In this document: positions 4,363 through 11,736 of the stretch, piece by piece
Layout: each line of letters begins with the position of its first letter
How positions within the stretch are numbered: the first letter of the stretch is position 1
Assembly: GCF_014696675.1 (NCBI RefSeq)
Contig: NZ_JACJQN010000012.1
Span: forward strand, 62,001 to 126,000
DNA length: 64,000 nt
Direction: 5' to 3'
From: Phormidium tenue FACHB-1052
GTDB taxonomy: Bacteria; Cyanobacteriota; Cyanobacteriia; Phormidesmidales; Phormidesmidaceae
Position numbers and translations under genes: made by a program
Notes under the pieces: generated by a model
What the model was told of the DNA's origin: nothing
Database searches by the model: none
Seen by the model: the letters and a program-made list of their open reading frames with translations, nothing else

Positions 4363-4857
4363 GCGATAGTGATAGATGAAGAGCGATGAAAACCTAGGAA
4401 AAAGTCTGGACAGGGCGGCTTCAACGCCACCGTTTTCTTCAAATCAGACTGAGCAGACTGGGCATACCACCCGCTATTACTCTATATAAACACTGAATCA
4501 GCCCAGTCTAAACCCCATTGGGTTTAAGCCGGTCGGCCCCTGCGACTGACACCGGCTTGAGGCAGCTAGGCCCCTGGCACCGTACAGCCTGAGAAATTAC
4601 GTGTCAGATTGTAAAAAAATAGAACACTCTCTATCATAAATAGAAACCCGGTCTTTAGAGGCTTGTCCTCTGAGGCTGCTGGTGCGATTCAGGCAGAGGT
4701 ATCGATGATTGGAGCAGGAATATTATTCTCTCTGGCTCTAATATCTGGAATACTTAGTAGTTACTAACCCCTGCTTTGAGGTATTGCTCTGCCAGGCTAT
4801 TCTGGATCCACAGAGCTGCGACCTTATGGATTGGATGTCATATAAAGAGGATTTGAC
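4363..4857. other. 495-bp divergent regulatory region between ycf4 and psbD
   Basis: No gene is evident here; the best short ORF, 37 codons from 4376, has no recognisable features. The region is AT-richer than its surroundings and should hold the ycf4 and psbD promoters and a long psbD leader. A good sigma-70-like promoter is annotated separately at 4609-4637. Confidence 0.6.
4609..4637 (+). promoter_or_regulatory. candidate psbD promoter
   Basis: TTGTAA and TATCAT are separated by exactly 17 bases. Initiation near 4644 would give psbD a leader of a little over 200 nt. A ribosome-binding sequence AAAGAGG precedes the psbD ATG by about eight bases. The promoter assignment is from consensus only. 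Confidence 0.4.
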
Positions 4858-5916
4858 ATGACCATAGCAATGGGACGCGCGCAAGCCGAGCGAGGATGGT
4901 TCGACGTCCTCGACGACTGGCTAAAGCGCGATCGCTTTGTGTTTATCGGGTGGTCGGGCATCCTGCTGTTCCCCTGCGCCTTCATGGCCGTGGGCGGCTG
5001 GCTGACCGGCACCACCTTTGTCACCTCCTGGTACACCCACGGCCTCGCGTCGTCGTACCTGGAAGGGTGCAACTTTTTGACCGTTGCCGTCTCCACCCCC
5101 GCCAATAGCCTGGGTCACTCCCTGCTACTGCTGTGGGGCCCTGAGGCCCAGGGTGACTTTGTGCGCTGGTGCCAGTTGGGCGGCCTGTGGAGCTTCGTTG
5201 CCCTACACGGCACCTTCGGCCTGATCGGCTTCATGCTGCGTCAGTTCGAAGTGGCTCGTCTCGTCGGTCTGCGACCCTACAACGCCATTGCCTTTTCGGC
5301 ACCGATTGCGGTATTTGTCAGCGTCTTTCTGATGTACCCCCTCGGTCAGTCGAGCTGGTTCTTTGCCCCCAGTTTTGGCGTCGCCGCCATCTTCCGCTTC
5401 CTGCTGTTCTTGCAAGGCTTCCACAACTGGACGCTGAACCCCTTCCACATGATGGGTGTAGCGGGTGTGCTGGGTGGAGCGCTGCTGTGCGCCATCCACG
5501 GTGCCACCGTCGAGAACACGCTGTTCAAAGATAGCGATAACGCCAACACCTTCCGTGCGTTTGAGCCGACCCAGGCCGAAGAGACCTACTCGATGGTGAC
5601 CGCCAACCGATTCTGGTCTCAGATTTTTGGGATTGCGTTTTCGAACAAGCGTTGGCTGCACTTCTTCATGCTGTTTGTGCCGGTCACCGGCTTGTGGATG
5701 AGTGCGGTGGGCATTGTGGGTCTCGGGTTGAACCTGCGGGCCTACGACTTTGTGTCCCAGGAGATTCGGGCGGCAGAAGACCCTGAGTTTGAGACCTTCT
5801 ACACCAAGAACATCTTGCTGAACGAAGGCATTCGGGCTTGGATGGCACCGACTGACCAGCCCCATGAGAAGTTTGTATTCCCCGAAGAGGTACTCCCCCG
5901 TGGTAACGCTCTCTAG
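4858..5916 (+). CDS. psbD: photosystem II D2 reaction centre protein
   Basis: D2 pairs with D1 to form the photosystem II reaction centre in the thylakoid membrane and binds chlorophylls, pheophytin, QA and the non-haem iron. The 352-residue product has the family length. It opens with [20 protein letters not shown], contains the five-helix core with [19 protein letters not shown], the [15 protein letters not shown] histidine region and [12 protein letters not shown], and ends in the normal LPRGNAL. The stop overlaps the GTG start of psbC by 17 bp, so this is the dicistronic psbD-psbC copy. Many cyanobacteria have a second stand-alone psbD elsewhere. Confidence 0.99.
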
Positions 5917-7282
5917 CAACTCGTATATTGCTGGGCGCGACCAAGAATCCACCGGCTTTGCCTGGTGGTCTGGTAACGCTCGTTTGATTAACCTATCCGG
6001 CAAGCTGTTGGGTGCCCACGTGGCCCACGCTGGTCTGATTGTGTTCTGGGCCGGGGCTATGACCCTGTTTGAAGTAGCCCACTTCGTTCCCGATAAGCCT
6101 CTGTATGAGCAGGGCTTCATTCTGCTACCTCACCTAGCCACTCTGGGCTGGGGTGTAGGGCCCGGTGGTGAAGTCATCAACACCTTCCCCTATTTCGTTG
6201 TCGGTGTGCTGCACCTGATTTCGTCGGCAGTGCTGGGTCTCGGTGGTATTTACCACGCCCTGCGCGGCCCCGAGGTGCTGGAAGAGTACTCTTCCTTCTT
6301 TGGCTACGACTGGAAAGACAAGAACCAGATGACCAACATCATCGGCTACCACCTCATCCTGCTGGGTTGCGGTGCGCTGCTGCTGGTTCTGAAGGCTTGC
6401 GTGTTTGGTGGTGTCTATGACACTTGGGCACCGGGCGGTGGCGATGTCCGCATCATCACCAACCCGACTCTGAACCCCGCCGTTATTTTCGGCTACCTGG
6501 CAGGTTCTCCCTTTGGTGGCGACGGCTGGATTGTCGGCGTCAACAACATGGAAGACATCATCGGCGGCCACATTTGGGTCGGCCTGATCTGCATCGCTGG
6601 CGGCATCTGGCACATTCTCACCAAGCCCTTCGGCTGGGCCCGTCGTGCTCTGATCTGGTCTGGTGAGGCCTACCTGTCGTACAGCCTGGGCGCTCTGTCC
6701 CTGATGGGCTTTATCGCCTCCTGCTACGTGTGGTTTAACAACACCGCCTATCCCTCTGAGTTCTACGGTCCCACCAACGCCGAGTCTTCTCAGGCTCAGG
6801 CGATGACCTTCCTGGTGCGCGACATGCGCCTGGGTGCCAACATCGGTGCGGCCCAAGGCCCCACTGGTCTAGGTAAGTACCTGATGCGCTCCCCCACTGG
6901 TGAGATCATCTTTGGTGGTGAAACCATGCGCTTTTGGGACTTCCAGGGTCCTTGGTTGGAGCCCCTGCGTGGCCCCAACGGCCTTGATCTCGATAAACTG
7001 ACCAACGATATCCAAGATTGGCAGGTGCGTCGCGCGGCTGAGTACATGACTCACGCGCCCAACGCCTCGATCAACTCGGTGGGTGGTGTGATCACGGAAA
7101 TCAACTCCGTGAACTTCGTTAACCCTCGCCAGTGGTTGTCGACCTCTCACTTTGTACTGGGCTTCTTTTTCCTGATTGGCCACCTCTGGCATGCTGGTCG
7201 CGCTCGCGCGGCTGAGGCAGGCTTCGAGAAGGGTATCGATCGCGAAACTGAACCCGTGCTCGCTATGGGCGACCTCGACTAA
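5900..7282 (+). CDS. psbC: photosystem II CP43 chlorophyll-binding protein
   Basis: CP43 is the inner light-harvesting antenna of photosystem II and contributes ligands to the oxygen-evolving cluster. I place the start at the GTG at 5900, giving 460 residues beginning [19 protein letters not shown]; an ATG at 5864 in the same frame would add 12 non-conserved residues read from inside psbD. A GTG start overlapping psbD is the known arrangement in cyanobacteria. The large lumenal loop includes [14 protein letters not shown], which holds the Glu and Arg that contact the Mn cluster. Six membrane helices with chlorophyll-binding His residues are evident. A strong terminator follows 30 bp after the TAA. 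Confidence 0.98.
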
Positions 7283-7312
7283 AGTTGAGGCTTAGCCCTC
7301 TTGGGCTGAACT

Positions 7313-7347
7313 AAAAAGCTCCTGCCCTAGGGCAGGAGCTTTTTTTT
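7313..7347 (+). terminator. strong intrinsic terminator after psbDC
   Basis: A perfect 32-bp palindrome has arms of 16 bases (AAAAAGCTCCTGCCCT and its complement) meeting at CCTAGG and running into a T8 tract. It would end psbDC transcription and, being symmetrical, may also act on leftward transcripts. Confidence 0.9.
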
Positions 7348-7419
7348 GCTGATTTGATGGGAGTTCTGAGGTTTTGCGAGCGCTCTTTTTTGAAAACAGA
7401 GGGTTGGGCTAGCGATCGC

Positions 7420-7626
7420 TTAGGTCATAATCACCGCAATGATGATGGCAGCCAGCGCCACAATCACGGCTGCCAGTAAAATGCCGGCAGCAATGTTGCC
7501 CCGACGGATTTCGGTTTGGTAGTCGATGGGGTCGAGGAGATCGAACAGCCGCACTCCACCATAAAACAGGAGCACGGCAAGAAATGTCCACCCGACTGTG
7601 GCAAGGGCGTCCTGAATAATGGGCAC
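7420..7626 (-). CDS. DUF350-family small membrane protein
   Basis: This 68-residue protein has a membrane helix at about 10-30, a short polar segment DPIDYQTEIRRGNIAAGI and a second helix at about 45-67. The polar-then-GNxAAGI pattern is that of DUF350 (YjfL-like) membrane proteins, here as a single unit. The start is GTG at 7626 with TAGGAG nine bases upstream. It is divergent from the cluster at 7863-11372. DUF350 genes are known to occur beside DUF4178 and spermidine-synthase-like genes, and both are present here, which supports a shared role. The biochemical function is unknown. Confidence 0.72.
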   Translation of the reverse strand: MPIIQDALATVGWTFLAVLLFYGGVRLFDLLDPIDYQTEIRRGNIAAGILLAAVIVALAAIIIAVIMT

Positions 7627-7718
7627 GGGTACAAGCTCCTACAAAAATTTTCCCTTAGCCTACCGAATTGCTTAGTCTAGCAACGACCCAGTAAAGAATA
7701 TTAAAGCTCAGTGGTTAA

Positions 7719-7745
7719 TTGTCCCTCTGATTGCGAGGGTATAAT
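7719..7745 (+). promoter_or_regulatory. candidate promoter for the 7863-11372 cluster
   Basis: TATAAT at 7740-7745 has TTGTCC 15 bases upstream. A CCCTC/GAGGG inverted repeat fills the spacer and could be an operator. Initiation near 7752 would leave a leader of about 110 nt that includes the short ORF at 7799. Confidence 0.35.
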
Positions 7746-7798
7746 TTGAGCCCTGTCCGATTGCATCTATTTTGATTGAGGCAATTCTTTAGAAGACA

Positions 7799-7873
7799 AT
7801 GCCCAAACCCAAACAAAACCTAAGCCGAGCGATTAGCGGCAAACTAAAGGGTAGGCGCGTTCATGCCCAGTAA
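7799..7873 (+). CDS. possible 24-codon basic leader peptide
   Basis: This ORF starts at an ATG, with AGAAG a few bases upstream, and encodes 24 residues of which about a third are Lys, Arg or His. It ends at a TAA that overlaps the first codons of the 334-aa gene at 7863, which is read in another frame. Such an overlap could couple translation of the cluster to the leader. It may equally be chance; nothing but position and charge supports it. Confidence 0.25.
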   Translation: MPKPKQNLSRAISGKLKGRRVHAQ

Positions 7874-8867
7874 GATTCAACCGTTGGTGACATCGCAATT
7901 TACTGAGCGATCGCCGTTGGTGGCGCTAGGGGCTTTGGGACTGTTGGGAATGGCGTTGCTGATCTCTCCCCTATTTCACCGGCAGCTATTGAGTGCTGGC
8001 GTCTACGTGGGGCCAGAAGAGACTGTTCAGTTGGACCCGGTGCAGCCCCGCGAAGGGGCGATCGGGGCGTTGCGGATCGATGCCGTGGCCCAATTGCCTA
8101 GCAATGCCTGGAGCGTCTTTGAAGTGCAGGTACTTGACAGCCAAGGCAATGTGCTGGCCTCGGCTATCAAGCAGGCGTGGAATGAGTCGGGCACCTGGCA
8201 AGAGGAGGGAGAATCGGGCGTCTGGCAGGAGCAGGACCAGGCTGGGCGGTTTGATATTCGCCAGGCCGCAATCGATGGGCCAGTGGTAGTGGCCATTTCG
8301 GTGCTGGAGCAGGGCAGCAGTACCGGGCAGCCCCTAGATAGCCCGGTGGTCTATCGCGTCACTGTGGCGGAGGGCGTGATCGACACCCGGTTTTTGTGGA
8401 GCGGGGCAATTGGGGTACTGCTGGTGGCGGCTTTGACGGCGATCGCCGTCAAAGCCGCCGGGCAGACAGTCATTAACGAGCAGATTAACGATAGCGATCT
8501 GGTGGGTCGCGGCACCCTGGGCGGCCCTAGTAAGCTGGTGCGAGTCATCATTACGGTTAAATCCGATGAGACTTCGCCGCCAAAGCTTACTGCTAACCTG
8601 GCCATCAACGACAGCTATGGCGAGTCTGTGTATCGTCGCGAAGTCGTCATACCGCTGTCAATGGAGCAGGAAGAGGGCAAAGTAGAGAGTGCCAGTGGTT
8701 CTGCTACCGTCGATTTGGTTTTGGAACCGAGGGGTTCCTATGGATTCTCGGTGGAGATTACCCCGGATGGCCCGGTCGATCACACGTTTCTAACGGTAAA
8801 GGAAGGCATTCGCACCTTCACCCCCACCGAAATTACTCACATTCAGTTGTCTACGGAACCTGCCTAA
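7863..8867 (+). CDS. two-TM membrane protein, hypothetical, first gene of the spermidine-synthase-like cluster
   Basis: This 334-residue protein has one hydrophobic helix near residues 18-38 and a second near 176-200. Between them lies a polar, beta-rich domain containing VQLDPVQPREGAIGALRIDA and pairs of EES/W residues. The C-terminal 130 residues form another polar domain. No catalytic motif is seen and I do not recognise the family. Its stop codon shares a base with the ATG of the 76-aa gene, and that gene overlaps the aminopropyltransferase-like gene, so the three are one translational unit. A likely job is an extracytoplasmic sensor or scaffold for the cluster, but that is inference from context. 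Confidence 0.7.
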   Translation: MPSKIQPLVTSQFTERSPLVALGALGLLGMALLISPLFHRQLLSAGVYVGPEETVQLDPVQPREGAIGALRIDAVAQLPSNAWSVFEVQVLDSQGNVLASAIKQAWNESGTWQEEGESGVWQEQDQAGRFDIRQAAIDGPVVVAISVLEQGSSTGQPLDSPVVYRVTVAEGVIDTRFLWSGAIGVLLVAALTAIAVKAAGQTVINEQINDSDLVGRGTLGGPSKLVRVIITVKSDETSPPKLTANLAINDSYGESVYRREVVIPLSMEQEEGKVESASGSATVDLVLEPRGSYGFSVEITPDGPVDHTFLTVKEGIRTFTPTEITHIQLSTEPA

Positions 8868-9097
8868 TGTTGCCAAAACTCGCTGCCTTGGGTGCCTTTG
8901 CGATCGCAATTTTGGCGATCGTCGGTAGCTACAGTCAAATGTCGGCCCTACGCTTGGGTCAGCAGGGCCAGCCGCTATATTGGCCCCACCGCAGCACCCG
9001 TCTGTCTGGCCTGCGCACCAACAATACCTGGCAGCCCTCGCCCAACCGCAGCGCCTACGAGAGCTTCCAGGGGGGAGGCATCGGAGTCGGTAAGTGA
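8867..9097 (+). CDS. 76-residue single-TM or exported protein with Gly-rich tail
   Basis: The ATG overlaps the preceding TAA and the TGA overlaps the following GTG, so expression is tightly coupled on both sides. Residues 4-24 are hydrophobic and could be a signal anchor. The rest is short and polar and ends in FQGGGIGVGK. In related DUF350/DUF4178 clusters a short gene often takes this position (for example DUF4247 members in Gram-positives), but I cannot assign this protein to that family by sequence alone. It is too short to be an enzyme, and a partner or substrate of the neighbouring enzyme is plausible. Confidence 0.65.
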   Translation: MLPKLAALGAFAIAILAIVGSYSQMSALRLGQQGQPLYWPHRSTRLSGLRTNNTWQPSPNRSAYESFQGGGIGVGK

Positions 9098-10635
9098 TTG
9101 CCACCCCCCTTACTCCGCACCAAGTGCGCTGGCTGCTGGCGGCGGCAGCAGTGTCGTCAAGCTGTGCCCTAGCGGCGGAGCTGTTGTTGGGCACCCTGAC
9201 CAGTTACCTAGTCGGCAACCAAGCGCTAGCCTACGGGGTGGCGATCGGGGGATTTTTGGCCGCGATGGGAGTAGGTGCTTACCTAAGCCGCTTTATTGCC
9301 CCCGAAGCCTCTTCAGATAGAGTGCAGACCATTTTGCTGACCCGTTTTTTTCAGGTAGAGCTGATTGTCGCCCCGCTGACGGCCCTACTGCCCCTAGGGT
9401 TGTTTGCGCTCTTTGCCGTGGATGGCCCGCTGTGGCTAGGGCTGCTGCTGGCCACGCTGCTGCTGGGCGTGCTGGCCGGTATGGAGGTGCCCCTGCTGAC
9501 CAGGCTGATCGAACTCGACAATGGGGTGCGGGAGGCGCTAGCGCAGGTACTAGCCTTGGACTATCTAGGTGCGCTGGTGGGTTCGCTGCTATTTCCGATC
9601 CTGATGCTGCCGCTGCTAGGGCTGTTTCCCTCAGCGGTGCTCATTGGGGCGGCTCCGGCCTGGATGGTGTACGGCATGGGAGGCAGTTTTCCGCAGATGC
9701 GCCCCTGGCGACGGCGGGGGCTGGGGGTGGGGCTAGCGCTGCTGTTGTTTACGCCTTTGGCCCTGCCCCTGAGTAACCGGCTTGAAAACAGCCTCTACGC
9801 AGCTCCGATCATCAATCGGCAGCAATCGCCCTACCAGCGCATTGTGCTGACTCGGTTTGGGCCAGATGTGCGGCTGTTTCTCAATGGCGACTTGCAGATG
9901 TCGACCCTAGACGAGTACCGCTACCACGAGTCTCTGGTGCATCCGGCCCTGGCGACCCAGGTCAACCCCCGGCACATTTTGCTGCTGGGGGCGGGCGATG
10001 GCATGGCTCTGCGGGAAATTCTTAAGTGGCCTCAGCTAGAATCGGTGCTGGTGATTGAGCTAGATTCACAACTGCTGGATCTGGCGCGGCGCTACCCGGC
10101 CCTGGCTTTGGCCAATGACCACGCCTTTGACGACCCCCGGGTGACGGTGCGCTACGGCGATGCCTTTAAGCTGGTGGCGGCCCTCGATCAAACCTTTGAT
10201 GTGATTGTGGCGGATTTTCCTGATCCGGACGTGGATGCGATCGCCAAACTCTACAGCCTGGGGTTTTACCAGCAAATTCGCCAGCACCTCAGCCCGACGG
10301 GGGTCTTTGTCACCCAGGCCTCTAGCCCGTTTTTTGCCCCAAAGGCCTTCGCCTGCATCGCCACCACCCTAGCCGCCGCCGCCTTCAAAACCTACCCCTA
10401 CACCGTGAGCGTGCCCAGCTTTGGCCCCTGGGGGTTTGTGCTGGCCAGCCAAGTCGAGATTGCCCCAGCAACACTGGCCCTGCCTGTAGCCACCCGCTTT
10501 CTCACACCCCAACTGTTGCCAACGCTGTTTGTGTTGCCAGGAGATATTCGCCTCAATGCCGTGCAGGTAAATCGATTGAGTCACCCGGTAATTGTGCGCT
10601 ACCAAAATGACCCTCGATGGACTTTGTATGATTGA
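9094..10635 (+). CDS. membrane-anchored spermidine-synthase-like aminopropyltransferase
   Basis: The GTG start overlaps the preceding gene by four bases. Residues 1 to about 215 form several hydrophobic helices. From about 235 a Rossmann-type spermidine synthase domain follows: QSPYQRIVLTRF, LFLNGDLQMSTLDEYRYHES, the nucleotide-binding LLLGAGDGMALREIL, the acidic VLVIELD, and ADFPDPDVDAIAKLYSLGFY where the classical enzymes have a DxxDP motif. Classical enzymes move aminopropyl groups from decarboxylated S-adenosylmethionine to putrescine. Membrane-fused members have unproven substrates and may modify something at the membrane. The length of 513 residues suits the fused family. It is followed by a weak hairpin and then the DUF4178 gene. 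Confidence 0.88.
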   Translation: MIATPLTPHQVRWLLAAAAVSSSCALAAELLLGTLTSYLVGNQALAYGVAIGGFLAAMGVGAYLSRFIAPEASSDRVQTILLTRFFQVELIVAPLTALLPLGLFALFAVDGPLWLGLLLATLLLGVLAGMEVPLLTRLIELDNGVREALAQVLALDYLGALVGSLLFPILMLPLLGLFPSAVLIGAAPAWMVYGMGGSFPQMRPWRRRGLGVGLALLLFTPLALPLSNRLENSLYAAPIINRQQSPYQRIVLTRFGPDVRLFLNGDLQMSTLDEYRYHESLVHPALATQVNPRHILLLGAGDGMALREILKWPQLESVLVIELDSQLLDLARRYPALALANDHAFDDPRVTVRYGDAFKLVAALDQTFDVIVADFPDPDVDAIAKLYSLGFYQQIRQHLSPTGVFVTQASSPFFAPKAFACIATTLAAAAFKTYPYTVSVPSFGPWGFVLASQVEIAPATLALPVATRFLTPQLLPTLFVLPGDIRLNAVQVNRLSHPVIVRYQNDPRWTLYD

Positions 10636-10696
10636 GCTGAGTCTGAGGCACGCGACTAGATCGGCCAGGTTAAACGTTAAACGTTCCACCTATTTG

Positions 10697-10723
10697 GCAA
10701 GCAACCCTTTGCTTGCTTGTTTC
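10697..10723 (+). terminator. weak hairpin between the aminopropyltransferase-like and DUF4178 genes
   Basis: GCAAGCAA and TTGCTTGC are separated by CCCT and followed by TTGTTTC. The short stem and imperfect T tract suggest partial attenuation rather than full termination. Confidence 0.35.
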
Positions 10724-10778
10724 AGTCCCCAAGTTCCTGTTTAATCCAGATCTCAAAAGTGTGTAGGGCGTTGCTGCG

Positions 10779-11372
10779 ATGTCGCTTTCTGTTCTGTGGA
10801 TTCTCATTTTTCTAGTTCTTCTGGTGGCGGCAGCAGGACTGTGGATTGCTGCTCAGCGGCGATCGCAGCCCACCCGCGAGACCTCACGCCACCTAACTGA
10901 GCAGCCCTCTATCTTTGAGCTGCAAATTGGCGATATTGTGCAGCACATGGGCCAAGACTGGGTGGTGGAGGGCAAGCTGATTTACCAAGAGGGAGGTTTC
11001 TCTTGGCTGGAGTACATGCTGCAGGATGGTGACGAAATTCGCTGGCTGGCTGTCGAAGAAGACGACTGGGTGACGGTGGCGCTGCTGGCTCCAGTGAACT
11101 CTCTAGAGGTCAGTGCTGCACCCCCGCCAGAATTGGTCTACAACGGTGACACCTATCAGCGCAAAGAAACAGGCCTGGCCACCATGCGCCGCGAGGGCAA
11201 CCTCCGCCGCCCCGAGGCAGAGACCTGTCGCTACTTTGATTACGAAGGCCCCGATCAAAAGGTGCTCTCGGTTGAAGATTGGGACGGCAATGTGGAGGTG
11301 ACAGCGGGTGTCGTCATTGCACCGCGATCGCTCATCATCTTGCCCGGCGAAGGGCGCAGTGTTTACCAATAA
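10779..11372 (+). CDS. DUF4178-domain membrane-anchored protein
   Basis: This 197-residue protein has an N-terminal membrane helix (about 5-24), a short basic linker and a beta-rich domain. That domain contains ELQIGDIVQHMGQDWVVEGKL, YQEGGFSWLEYML, DGDEIRWLAVEEDDW and a later FDYEGPDQKVLSVEDWDG. The pattern is that of DUF4178, which is repeatedly found beside membrane spermidine-synthase-like and DUF350 genes. The function is not known; the domain may bind a small molecule or peptide on the cytoplasmic face. It is 143 bp downstream of the aminopropyltransferase-like gene and probably completes the operon. Confidence 0.8.
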   Translation: MSLSVLWILIFLVLLVAAAGLWIAAQRRSQPTRETSRHLTEQPSIFELQIGDIVQHMGQDWVVEGKLIYQEGGFSWLEYMLQDGDEIRWLAVEEDDWVTVALLAPVNSLEVSAAPPPELVYNGDTYQRKETGLATMRREGNLRRPEAETCRYFDYEGPDQKVLSVEDWDGNVEVTAGVVIAPRSLIILPGEGRSVYQ

Positions 11373-11493
11373 GCTAGCTTGCTCCCTTACTTTTGGCCCC
11401 ATGGCTTGTGGCGATTGCCAAAGAGCGCGAAGCCGAGAAGCTGGCGATCGCTGGAGCGTTCCGGTTTAGAGTGCTATGGGGCGATATCGAAAA

Positions 11494-11736
11494 TCAGTAA
11501 ATTTCGGGCTCTGGGAGAGGAACAACAAAATTAGAGGGGTCGTTGAGATAGCGAATGGTGTCTTCTTCGAGGCGGTGGATCAGATAGGGTTCGAGGGCAT
11601 CGGAGTGGCGGAGGGCCGCCAAATAGCCTTCAAGGTAAAGCCGCAGCTCGCTGGTGCGATAGCCTCGGTTCCACTGGTCGACGAAGGCATCGGTAATGCG
11701 TTGATAGTACCGAACAGCTTTGGCATCCTGAAGCAT
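11494..11736 (-). CDS. conserved cyanobacterial protein, DUF6761-like
   Basis: This is an 80-residue soluble, mostly helical protein with the pattern YYQRITDAFVDQWNRGY, ELRLYLEGYLAALRHS and PYLIHRLEEDTIRYLNDPSNF. I recognise this as the short conserved cyanobacterial family labelled DUF6761. No enzymatic motif is present and the role is unknown. It stands alone on the minus strand. The 173 bp upstream, to 11909, contain an AT-rich stretch with TATAAAGAT-like and TATAAC-like sequences on the minus strand that probably hold its promoter. Confidence 0.75.
   Translation of the reverse strand: MLQDAKAVRYYQRITDAFVDQWNRGYRTSELRLYLEGYLAALRHSDALEPYLIHRLEEDTIRYLNDPSNFVVPLPEPEIY

Follow-up and report, generated by a model that had tools for sequence, protein, structure and literature searches.

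Fusions of a membrane protein to spermidine synthase (SpdSyn), as described by Li et al. in 2019, are reportedly linked to S-adenosylmethionine decarboxylase (AdoMetDC) and to DUF350 proteins. They are said to fail to complement a spermidine synthase mutant, and an acceptor other than putrescine was reportedly proposed, with the substrate itself said to have been left open. For such membrane-fused spermidine-synthase-like enzymes, which occur in many phyla, no substrate was found in the literature that we searched (subscription papers, supplements and outside preprints aside). A seven-transmembrane (7TM) domain fused to an aminopropyltransferase (APT), together with DUF350 (YjfL family) and DUF4178, also characterizes the PspA/CesT-Tir operon (Ravi et al. 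2024, PMC11237479, where Li et al. 2019, Biochem J 476:2579, is reference 89). Here we analyse a locus with the same three components in a 64,000-nucleotide stretch, called the window below, of the cyanobacterium Phormidium tenue FACHB-1052 (contig NZ_JACJQN010000012.1, positions 62,001 to 126,000 of the forward strand). A first-pass annotation of this DNA had stated that the families are associated with PspA-type loci, and this is indeed in print (PMC11237479): the type of system is already published as a PspA-linked operon, and the window holds a PspA-free cyanobacterial form of it. New in this analysis are the recurring C-terminal lysine of a small protein encoded beside the enzyme and a predicted outward topology. 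We propose, tentatively and as a call falling just short of even, that the operon encodes a membrane protein-modifying APT responsible for extracytoplasmic aminopropylation of that lysine. The genes, in window coordinates, are as follows.

8867 to 9097, plus strand: 76-aa small protein (open reading frame, ORF) with an N-terminal hydrophobic segment, membrane-anchored or exported
9071 to 9097, plus strand: GGGIGVGK end of the 76-aa protein, plus its stop codon (pattern search of the own genome)
9094 to 10635, plus strand: 513-aa seven-TM APT (NF002956, AlphaFold, fold match)
9094 to 9789, plus strand: APT seven-TM domain, residues 1-232 (72-sequence alignment; loop charge profile)
9790 to 10632, plus strand: APT catalytic domain, residues 233-513 (column counts in 87 sequences)
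10779 to 11372, plus strand: DUF4178 protein of 197 aa, an N-terminal TM segment followed by positively charged residues (PF13785, 8e-39)
7863 to 8867, plus strand: 334-aa protein gene; TM 17-38, ectodomain 40-172, TM 175-197, C-terminal domain 201-328 (AlphaFold and an alignment of 15)
7420 to 7626, minus strand: DUF350 protein of 68 aa with two hydrophobic helices, divergent from the operon (PF03994, 2e-11, 44.5 bits against a cut-off of 26)

All five genes that the first-pass annotation had listed are present as ORFs in the places it gave, and its family assignments held: Pfam confirmed DUF350, Spermine_synth and DUF4178, and left the 334-aa and 76-aa proteins without a family at E ≤ 1.

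The most telling part of the cluster is the 76-aa protein with its C-terminal lysine, a residue that the earlier annotation overlooked. The protein ends in GGGIGVGK-COOH, and the pattern GGGxGxGK followed by a stop has a single match in the 5.8-Mb genome, the 76-aa protein itself. For a wider view, contigs of genomes were scanned with an APT alignment and the best 80 of 536 confirmed loci were used (labels below: L, loci; G, genomes of a draw from the phylum; C, contigs of the own genome; H, plasmid hits). Hand curation placed a protein ending in lysine alongside the APT in 69 of the 80 loci, from many phyla: 59 stand-alone, 8 fused to DUF4178 and 2 in a divergent cluster. The penultimate residue was glycine in 49, histidine in 18 and alanine in 2. 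This list was hand-assembled with uncurated ORF starts, and it selects for terminal lysine because its members were chosen for it. The unselected test is therefore the ending-blind one, in which ORFs were picked solely by position, length and hydrophobicity. No candidate was obtained in 27 of the 80 loci; 48 of the 53 loci with any candidate had one ending in lysine. Counted by ORF, 50 of 70 candidates ended in lysine, against 44 of 892 ORFs of at least 250 aa in the same DNA. A third count took ORFs whose final 90 residues include a TM segment and whose last two residues are GK, HK or AK. Within the clusters and on the strands of the cluster genes there were 62 of 278 (ORFs above 700 aa left out; a few of the 62, in L102, L137, L144, L150 and L170, look spurious), compared with 0 of 102 for the opposite strand inside clusters and 9 of 704 outside them; two of these nine are true tails of L099.

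The tail also follows the rest of the cluster. It is found in 64 of the 67 loci having DUF4178, in 21 of the 22 phylum genomes with a full-length APT and in 6 of 7 plasmid loci (H1, H2, H3, H4, H5, H8 and H10, examined out of 10 hits); H8 has none, and in H5 it is encoded about 2.6 kb from the APT and on the opposite strand. In G004, G018, G032 and G038 a K-tail gene accompanies DUF4178 and DUF350 on a contig without an APT above the cut-off, which we count in favour of the proposal. Through all of this the remaining tail sequence varies strongly while the last residue stays constant. Two tail proteins per genome may occur in some cases, since L099 holds at 4785-4934 a second small protein, ending in GGGPSRGK, within the same locus.

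The APT might instead modify a lipid head group or some other envelope amine, such as phosphatidylethanolamine, with the lysine-tail protein serving as a subunit and not as a substrate. The seven-TM domain of the enzyme would suit such a role, the main text of PMC11237479 links the system to membrane stress, and the tail as acceptor is something that we infer. Nevertheless, this explanation, which we hold to be unlikely though deserving of real weight, leaves unaccounted for the regular terminal lysine (48/53 loci when picked blind to the ending) amid an otherwise variable tail, as well as the tails fused to DUF4178 proteins in other phyla. The pattern suggests rather that the enzyme decorates the tail lysine instead of making free spermidine.

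The enzyme itself matches Spermine_synth in Pfam (8e-38, residues 275-451) and, over residues 7-509, NCBIfam NF002956/PRK03612 (536.6 bits against a cut-off of 472). It has seven hydrophobic segments. In its AlphaFold model (mean predicted local distance difference test, pLDDT, 95.4) residues 8-232 are nearly all helical, TM4 and TM5 falling into one helix call at 113-175, and the catalytic part matches solved aminopropyltransferases in fold. Conservation was read from 87 APTs, made up of 10 from the window and phylum loci and 77 of 83 hidden Markov model (HMM) hits (480-600 aa, E<1e-100), and from a 72-sequence subset aligned for the seven-TM domain. The latter has three invariant acidic residues, E29, E131 and D156. 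In the catalytic domain Q268, Y277, H278, G299-x-G301-D302-G303, D356 and D377 are invariant, so that the GxG(D/E)G motif for decarboxylated S-adenosylmethionine (dcSAM) and the catalytic aspartates are present; D302 and D377 are kept in 87/87 and D374 in 86/87 APTs. D302, presumably dcSAM-binding, and the aspartates D374 and D377 are assigned their roles as in spermidine synthases generally. With these three residues conserved, aminopropyl transfer is the likely chemistry.

In PADLOC the APT matched mad2 through its spermidine-synthase domain (2.8e-16) and, weakly, a type II methyltransferase (0.0016); the other four proteins gave no match at E ≤ 1. A further reading takes the C-terminal domain for a SAM-dependent methyltransferase. 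The fungal 7TM histidine methyltransferase, whose substrates are secreted proteins, has the same order of a 7TM part and then a spermidine-synthase-like domain (parts of PMC10349129), and the enzyme might likewise methylate an exported protein here. According to the same source, however, the acidic residue of GxG(D/E)G marks users of dcSAM, and D302 is present in 87/87 APTs; the linked AdoMetDC likewise argues for dcSAM. We therefore regard methylation as very unlikely and retain aminopropyl transfer.

The own genome (5.82 Mb in 36 contigs) has two Spermine_synth places, the operon APT and, on C10, an ORF of 446 aa with an additional AdoMet_dc domain, thus a SpeD-SpeE fusion; the cell therefore has its own SpeD-SpeE and a source of dcSAM. 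The view of the APT as a housekeeping SpeE, soluble and the only one in the cell, was rejected on the 7TM fusion, the PRK03612 match and this separate SpeD-SpeE, in agreement with the first-pass annotation, which had named a plain SpeE as the outcome that would speak against it. A related possibility is that the APT produces free polyamine at the membrane, either to be secreted or by using an acceptor taken up from outside, with the other genes acting as carriers and sensors. It has on its side the fold and catalytic residues of polyamine aminopropyltransferases, the NCBIfam family name (polyamine aminopropyltransferase) and AdoMetDC in 37 of the 80 loci. Set against this are the separate SpeE domain fused to SpeD in the same genome and the reported failure of such fusions to stand in for a spermidine synthase. 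PMC11237479, moreover, refers to Li et al. 2019 when it speaks of other substrates being aminopropylated, and we consider free polyamine production improbable. The own genome has two PspA_IM30 matches, on contigs C5 and C23; the window, on C4, gave nothing with the PspA profile at E ≤ 1, as the first-pass annotation had said of pspA.

That the genes belong together, another of its claims, is borne out by the wider set. Using local HMMs (E<1e-3, within the fetched flanks), we found DUF4178 in 67 of 80 membrane-APT loci and DUF350 in 60 of 80, and the lack of co-occurrence that could have spoken against the claim was not seen. A flavin amine oxidase and AdoMetDC each occur in 37 of 80 loci (confirmed by Pfam on two and four examples, respectively), AdoMetDC also in the cyanobacterial loci L094, L102 and L173; PspA is encoded in 6/80 and an SPFH protein in 18/80. 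The linked amine oxidases carry a signal like that of twin-arginine translocation (Tat) in 35 of 36 loci, counting amine oxidases at E<1e-50 and accepting RR or RK; the count missed L139, whose twin arginine is visible by eye. On a Novosphingobium plasmid the order is SPFH, DUF4178, DUF4178, 48-aa hypothetical protein, DUF350, polyamine aminopropyltransferase, FAD-dependent oxidoreductase and speD, the 48-aa protein ending in SHK; this order resembles the operon class of Ravi et al. as given in the main text of PMC11237479. As a side observation, L110 (2883-8494), from a metagenome-assembled genome of Acidobacteriota, has two membrane APT genes pointing apart around one cluster, and a 425-aa ORF between them ends in SGARGK.

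Charge offers a view of topology. Across the 87 APTs the mean number of lysines plus arginines is 2.05 before TM1 and, in the loops in order, 0.01, 2.01, 0.00, 1.97, 0.00 and 3.43, while after TM7 acidic residues exceed basic ones (2.77 versus 1.26). Under the positive-inside rule this pattern would put the N-terminus inside and the catalytic domain on the outer face of the cytoplasmic membrane. Most tails appear to lie outside as well, because positive charge mostly precedes their TM segment: with the N-terminal amine scored as +1, 44 of the 58 K-tail proteins with a clear TM are more positive before it, 10 are equal and 4 are reversed. The charge of the APT, that of the tail and the Tat-like signal of the amine oxidase are thus three lines that point to an extracytoplasmic reaction.

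Putting these elements together, we envisage that the SpeD domain elsewhere in the genome, or in other species often a linked SpeD, would supply dcSAM. The seven-TM module would anchor the APT and, with E29, E131 and D156, may pass the positively charged dcSAM outward. On the extracytoplasmic face the lysine that ends the 76-aa protein would then receive a 3-aminopropyl group on its side-chain amine. This putative acceptor forms the tip of a flexible glycine tail, and its side chain, -(CH2)4-NH2, is like the usual acceptor putrescine. The ectodomain of the 334-aa protein and the DUF4178 and DUF350 membrane proteins might assemble or sense the complex, and in many other bacteria the new amine would be a substrate for the Tat-exported amine oxidase. 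Aminopropyl units on lysine do occur, in diatom silaffins (as described in parts of PMC3820600), which we count in support. The physiological role is probably envelope stress, going by the published context of related operons. In the literature searched we found no earlier proposal of the lysine tail as APT substrate and no paper joining the terms C-terminal lysine and aminopropyltransferase.

Several observations weigh against this proposal. Both topologies are predictions from charge and hydropathy; loop 4-5 of the APT is mixed (acidic 2.61, basic 1.97), and among the tails 4 of 58 are reversed, 10 are neutral and 11 of 69 have no clear TM in the stretch scored. A periplasmic supply of dcSAM, or a carrier for it, is not known to us. 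The terminal lysine might serve for recognition and not as the acceptor. A tail was missed or is absent in 11 of the 80 loci (L096, L098, L106, L109, L110, L111, L132, L134, L142, L156 and L161), 8 of which also lack DUF4178 in the DNA covered; L096 starts too close to the APT, at a contig edge, to be judged, and L110 is unclear. In L098 DUF4178 is present but no tail; L142 combines an APT with amine oxidase and AdoMetDC, and tail, DUF4178 and DUF350 are all missing from the DNA covered. In the phylum set, G121 has an APT with no tail in its 1.5-kb flanks. The cyanobacterial loci yielded no amine oxidase, and loci of one genus (Corallococcus, Snodgrassella) are not independent. For these bacteria at large, we can imagine a widespread post-translational modification, one that we did not meet in the literature searched: a small exported protein dedicated to it would receive the aminopropyl group of dcSAM on its C-terminal lysine from an outward-facing membrane APT. 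In many lineages the product would then pass to a Tat-exported amine oxidase, leaving the envelope with tails that are charged or can be cross-linked. We hold this broader form to be possible, with somewhat more doubt than belief.

The 334-aa protein had been put forward as perhaps a new component, and here the first-pass annotation has to be corrected for the N-terminal half. The protein has no Pfam family at E ≤ 1 and one sub-threshold NCBIfam match (E 1), with two hydrophobic segments that begin at about residues 16 and 176. In AlphaFold model m6c9163accdfe (mean pLDDT 87.7) the second TM parts two beta-rich domains, the first of them encoded as follows.

7977 to 8378, plus strand: ectodomain-coding part of the 334-aa gene, residues 39-172 (hhalign to the DUF4178 C-terminal module; VIA-align to GOLD)

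A single pass with a profile of the cyanobacterial 334 family found stand-alone relatives of 186-243 aa in L108 (E 4.9e-5), L126 (1.2e-4) and L158 (0.0099), together with weak matches (best E 0.0019) to long DUF4178 proteins in their C-terminal part. By iterated search the TM-ectodomain-TM module is present in 52 of the 80 loci. Profile comparison by hhalign aligned the cyanobacterial 334 set with the DUF4178-fused set at 97.8% (E 9.7e-13, 166 columns, query 17-192) and with the stand-alone set at 95.9%, a test not fully independent because the template sets had themselves come from an iterated search that started with the 334-aa family. By these profile matches, the N-terminal half is a stand-alone form of the module fused to the DUF4178 C-terminus in many other phyla, and the idea of a wholly new component was rejected for this half. 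Only the C-terminal part, about 135 residues, was left without a relative beyond the cyanobacteria among the 80 loci, to which the search was confined. As judged from sequence comparison, the protein is a split-off module known by its context, with a cyanobacterial C-terminal extension. In the model, the ectodomain is a beta sandwich whose likeness to GOLD domains is a lead only: VIA-align gave Z 10.3 to the p24 GOLD domain (94 residues, root-mean-square deviation, rmsd, 2.8), one chain from a protease-propeptide complex scores higher (Z 11.7 with 97 residues aligned, rmsd 2.2), and many further sandwiches reach Z 8-9. The best Foldseek rows for the 334-aa model had low TM-scores, about 0.2 to the query.

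Among 292 genomes drawn from the phylum, the 334-aa protein occurs in 7, DUF4178 in 28, a membrane APT over the cut-off in 22, and DUF350 in 36 at E ≤ 0.001 and in 30 over the cut-off. All seven genomes with the 334-aa protein also have DUF4178, an arrangement that exceeds chance (hypergeometric p 3.5e-8, relatedness ignored), and DUF4178 is found in 20 of the 22 APT genomes, the exceptions being G120 and G121. The comparison of neighbourhoods over cyanobacteria that the first-pass annotation had recommended bears out its grouping: the order 334-aa protein, 76-aa protein, APT and DUF4178 recurs in L044, L047, L048 and L049. In L045 the APT is followed by an unmatched ORF that runs up to where the contig stops; DUF4178 is near an end of a different contig. 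A divergent DUF350 gene just upstream of a 334-like gene is also found in L094, L104 and L105; in L051 it stands upstream of a 381-aa two-TM protein in the 334 position, whose homology to the 334-aa protein was not shown. DUF350 beside the operon was not found in the genomes of L044, L045, L047, L048, L049 and L050. The stretch 6916-11945 of L050 is a decayed copy of the operon, with the 334-like gene split into two ORFs and the APT interrupted by a 390-aa ORF. The distribution is patchy, as the two drawn genomes of the window's own family are without the 334-aa protein.

One might take from this that the genes are loosely associated and share no joint biochemical task, given a 334-aa protein in only 7/292 genomes, a DUF350 gene unlinked or not found in several carriers and the decayed copy in L050. 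The recurrence of the gene set over many phyla speaks against it, and the neighbourhood data leave this explanation hardly credible. The same phylum holds variants of the locus. L060 and L062 (both about 8.2-12.6 kb) and L063 (about 5.2-9.2 kb) show another cyanobacterial operon, with DUF4178, a spermine-synthase-domain protein, a FemAB-like transferase and a multi-TM DUF350 protein (Spermine_synth and FemAB tested by Pfam in L060). Its APT-like protein is soluble with a hydrophobic C-terminus, its DUF350 has 8 TM, and no C-terminal lysine tail was found by the pattern used. In L055, L058 and L059, from another class of the phylum, the order is DUF4178, lysine tail and DUF350, followed by a gene of about 800 aa that replaces the APT and is a peptidase S49 by Pfam in L055; the APT of these genomes is on another contig. 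In L053 (6763-9651) a Ser/Thr kinase with tetratricopeptide (TPR) repeats and a DUF2617 protein adjoin DUF4178.

In the window, the 334-aa and 76-aa genes overlap by 1 base and the 76-aa and APT genes by 4 bases; by these overlaps the three genes are coupled. The APT and DUF4178 genes are 143 bases apart, and the 236 bases between DUF350 and the 334-aa gene form the remaining feature.

7627 to 7862, no strand: intergenic region between the divergent DUF350 gene and the operon (sequence read and promoter scan)

A scan detected no sigma-70-like site in this region, and promoter and terminator scans of 7300-11700 found nothing exceeding chance. The DUF4178 domain is probably on the cytoplasmic side, judging by its N-terminal segment. 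An 80-aa DUF6761 protein (11494-11736, minus strand) adjoins the operon. Upstream, at 4858-7282 on the plus strand, lie two overlapping genes that we take, from their sequence, to be psbD and psbC.

In comparison with the operon of PMC11237479, the window is without PspA, and no CesT/Tir match was obtained among the six window ORFs tested by Pfam. Its DUF350 protein is a short, divergent two-helix protein of 68 aa, where the published operon includes the 8TM form, and its TM-ectodomain-TM module is encoded on its own, in a gene that carries a C-terminal extension. The 'novel lipoprotein (Ctha_1186 domain)' of that paper is a candidate counterpart of the lysine-tail protein; in its main text the word lysine is absent, and no claim of an extracytoplasmic catalytic domain was seen in parts of it. 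The fungal N-terminal histidine methyltransferase (NHMT), which like the APT joins a 7TM part, in a sequence reported in fungi only, to a spermidine-synthase-like domain and acts in the endoplasmic reticulum on secreted proteins, differs in three ways: its GxG(D/E)G motif has isoleucine at the acidic position, it uses SAM and it targets an N-terminal histidine (parts of PMC10349129). NCBIfam MFS_SpdSyn (NF037959) shares a membrane domain and a spermidine synthase domain, and the APT matches it below threshold (33.6 bits against 40). Diatom silaffins, as described in parts of PMC3820600, resemble the proposal in bearing aminopropyl units on lysine side chains of exported proteins, by an enzymatic machinery incompletely known, and differ in their many in-chain lysines, longer polyamine chains and eukaryotic setting. 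If our proposal is true, dcSAM is used outside the cytoplasm, bacteria possess a new protein modification tied to the envelope, and the amine oxidases and AdoMetDC that travel with DUF350 and DUF4178 are explained. A small partner with such a regular terminal lysine is a concrete substrate candidate and makes the substrate question testable. Relative to the membrane protein-SpdSyn fusions of Li et al. 2019, whose substrate was reportedly left open, a candidate substrate is named here.

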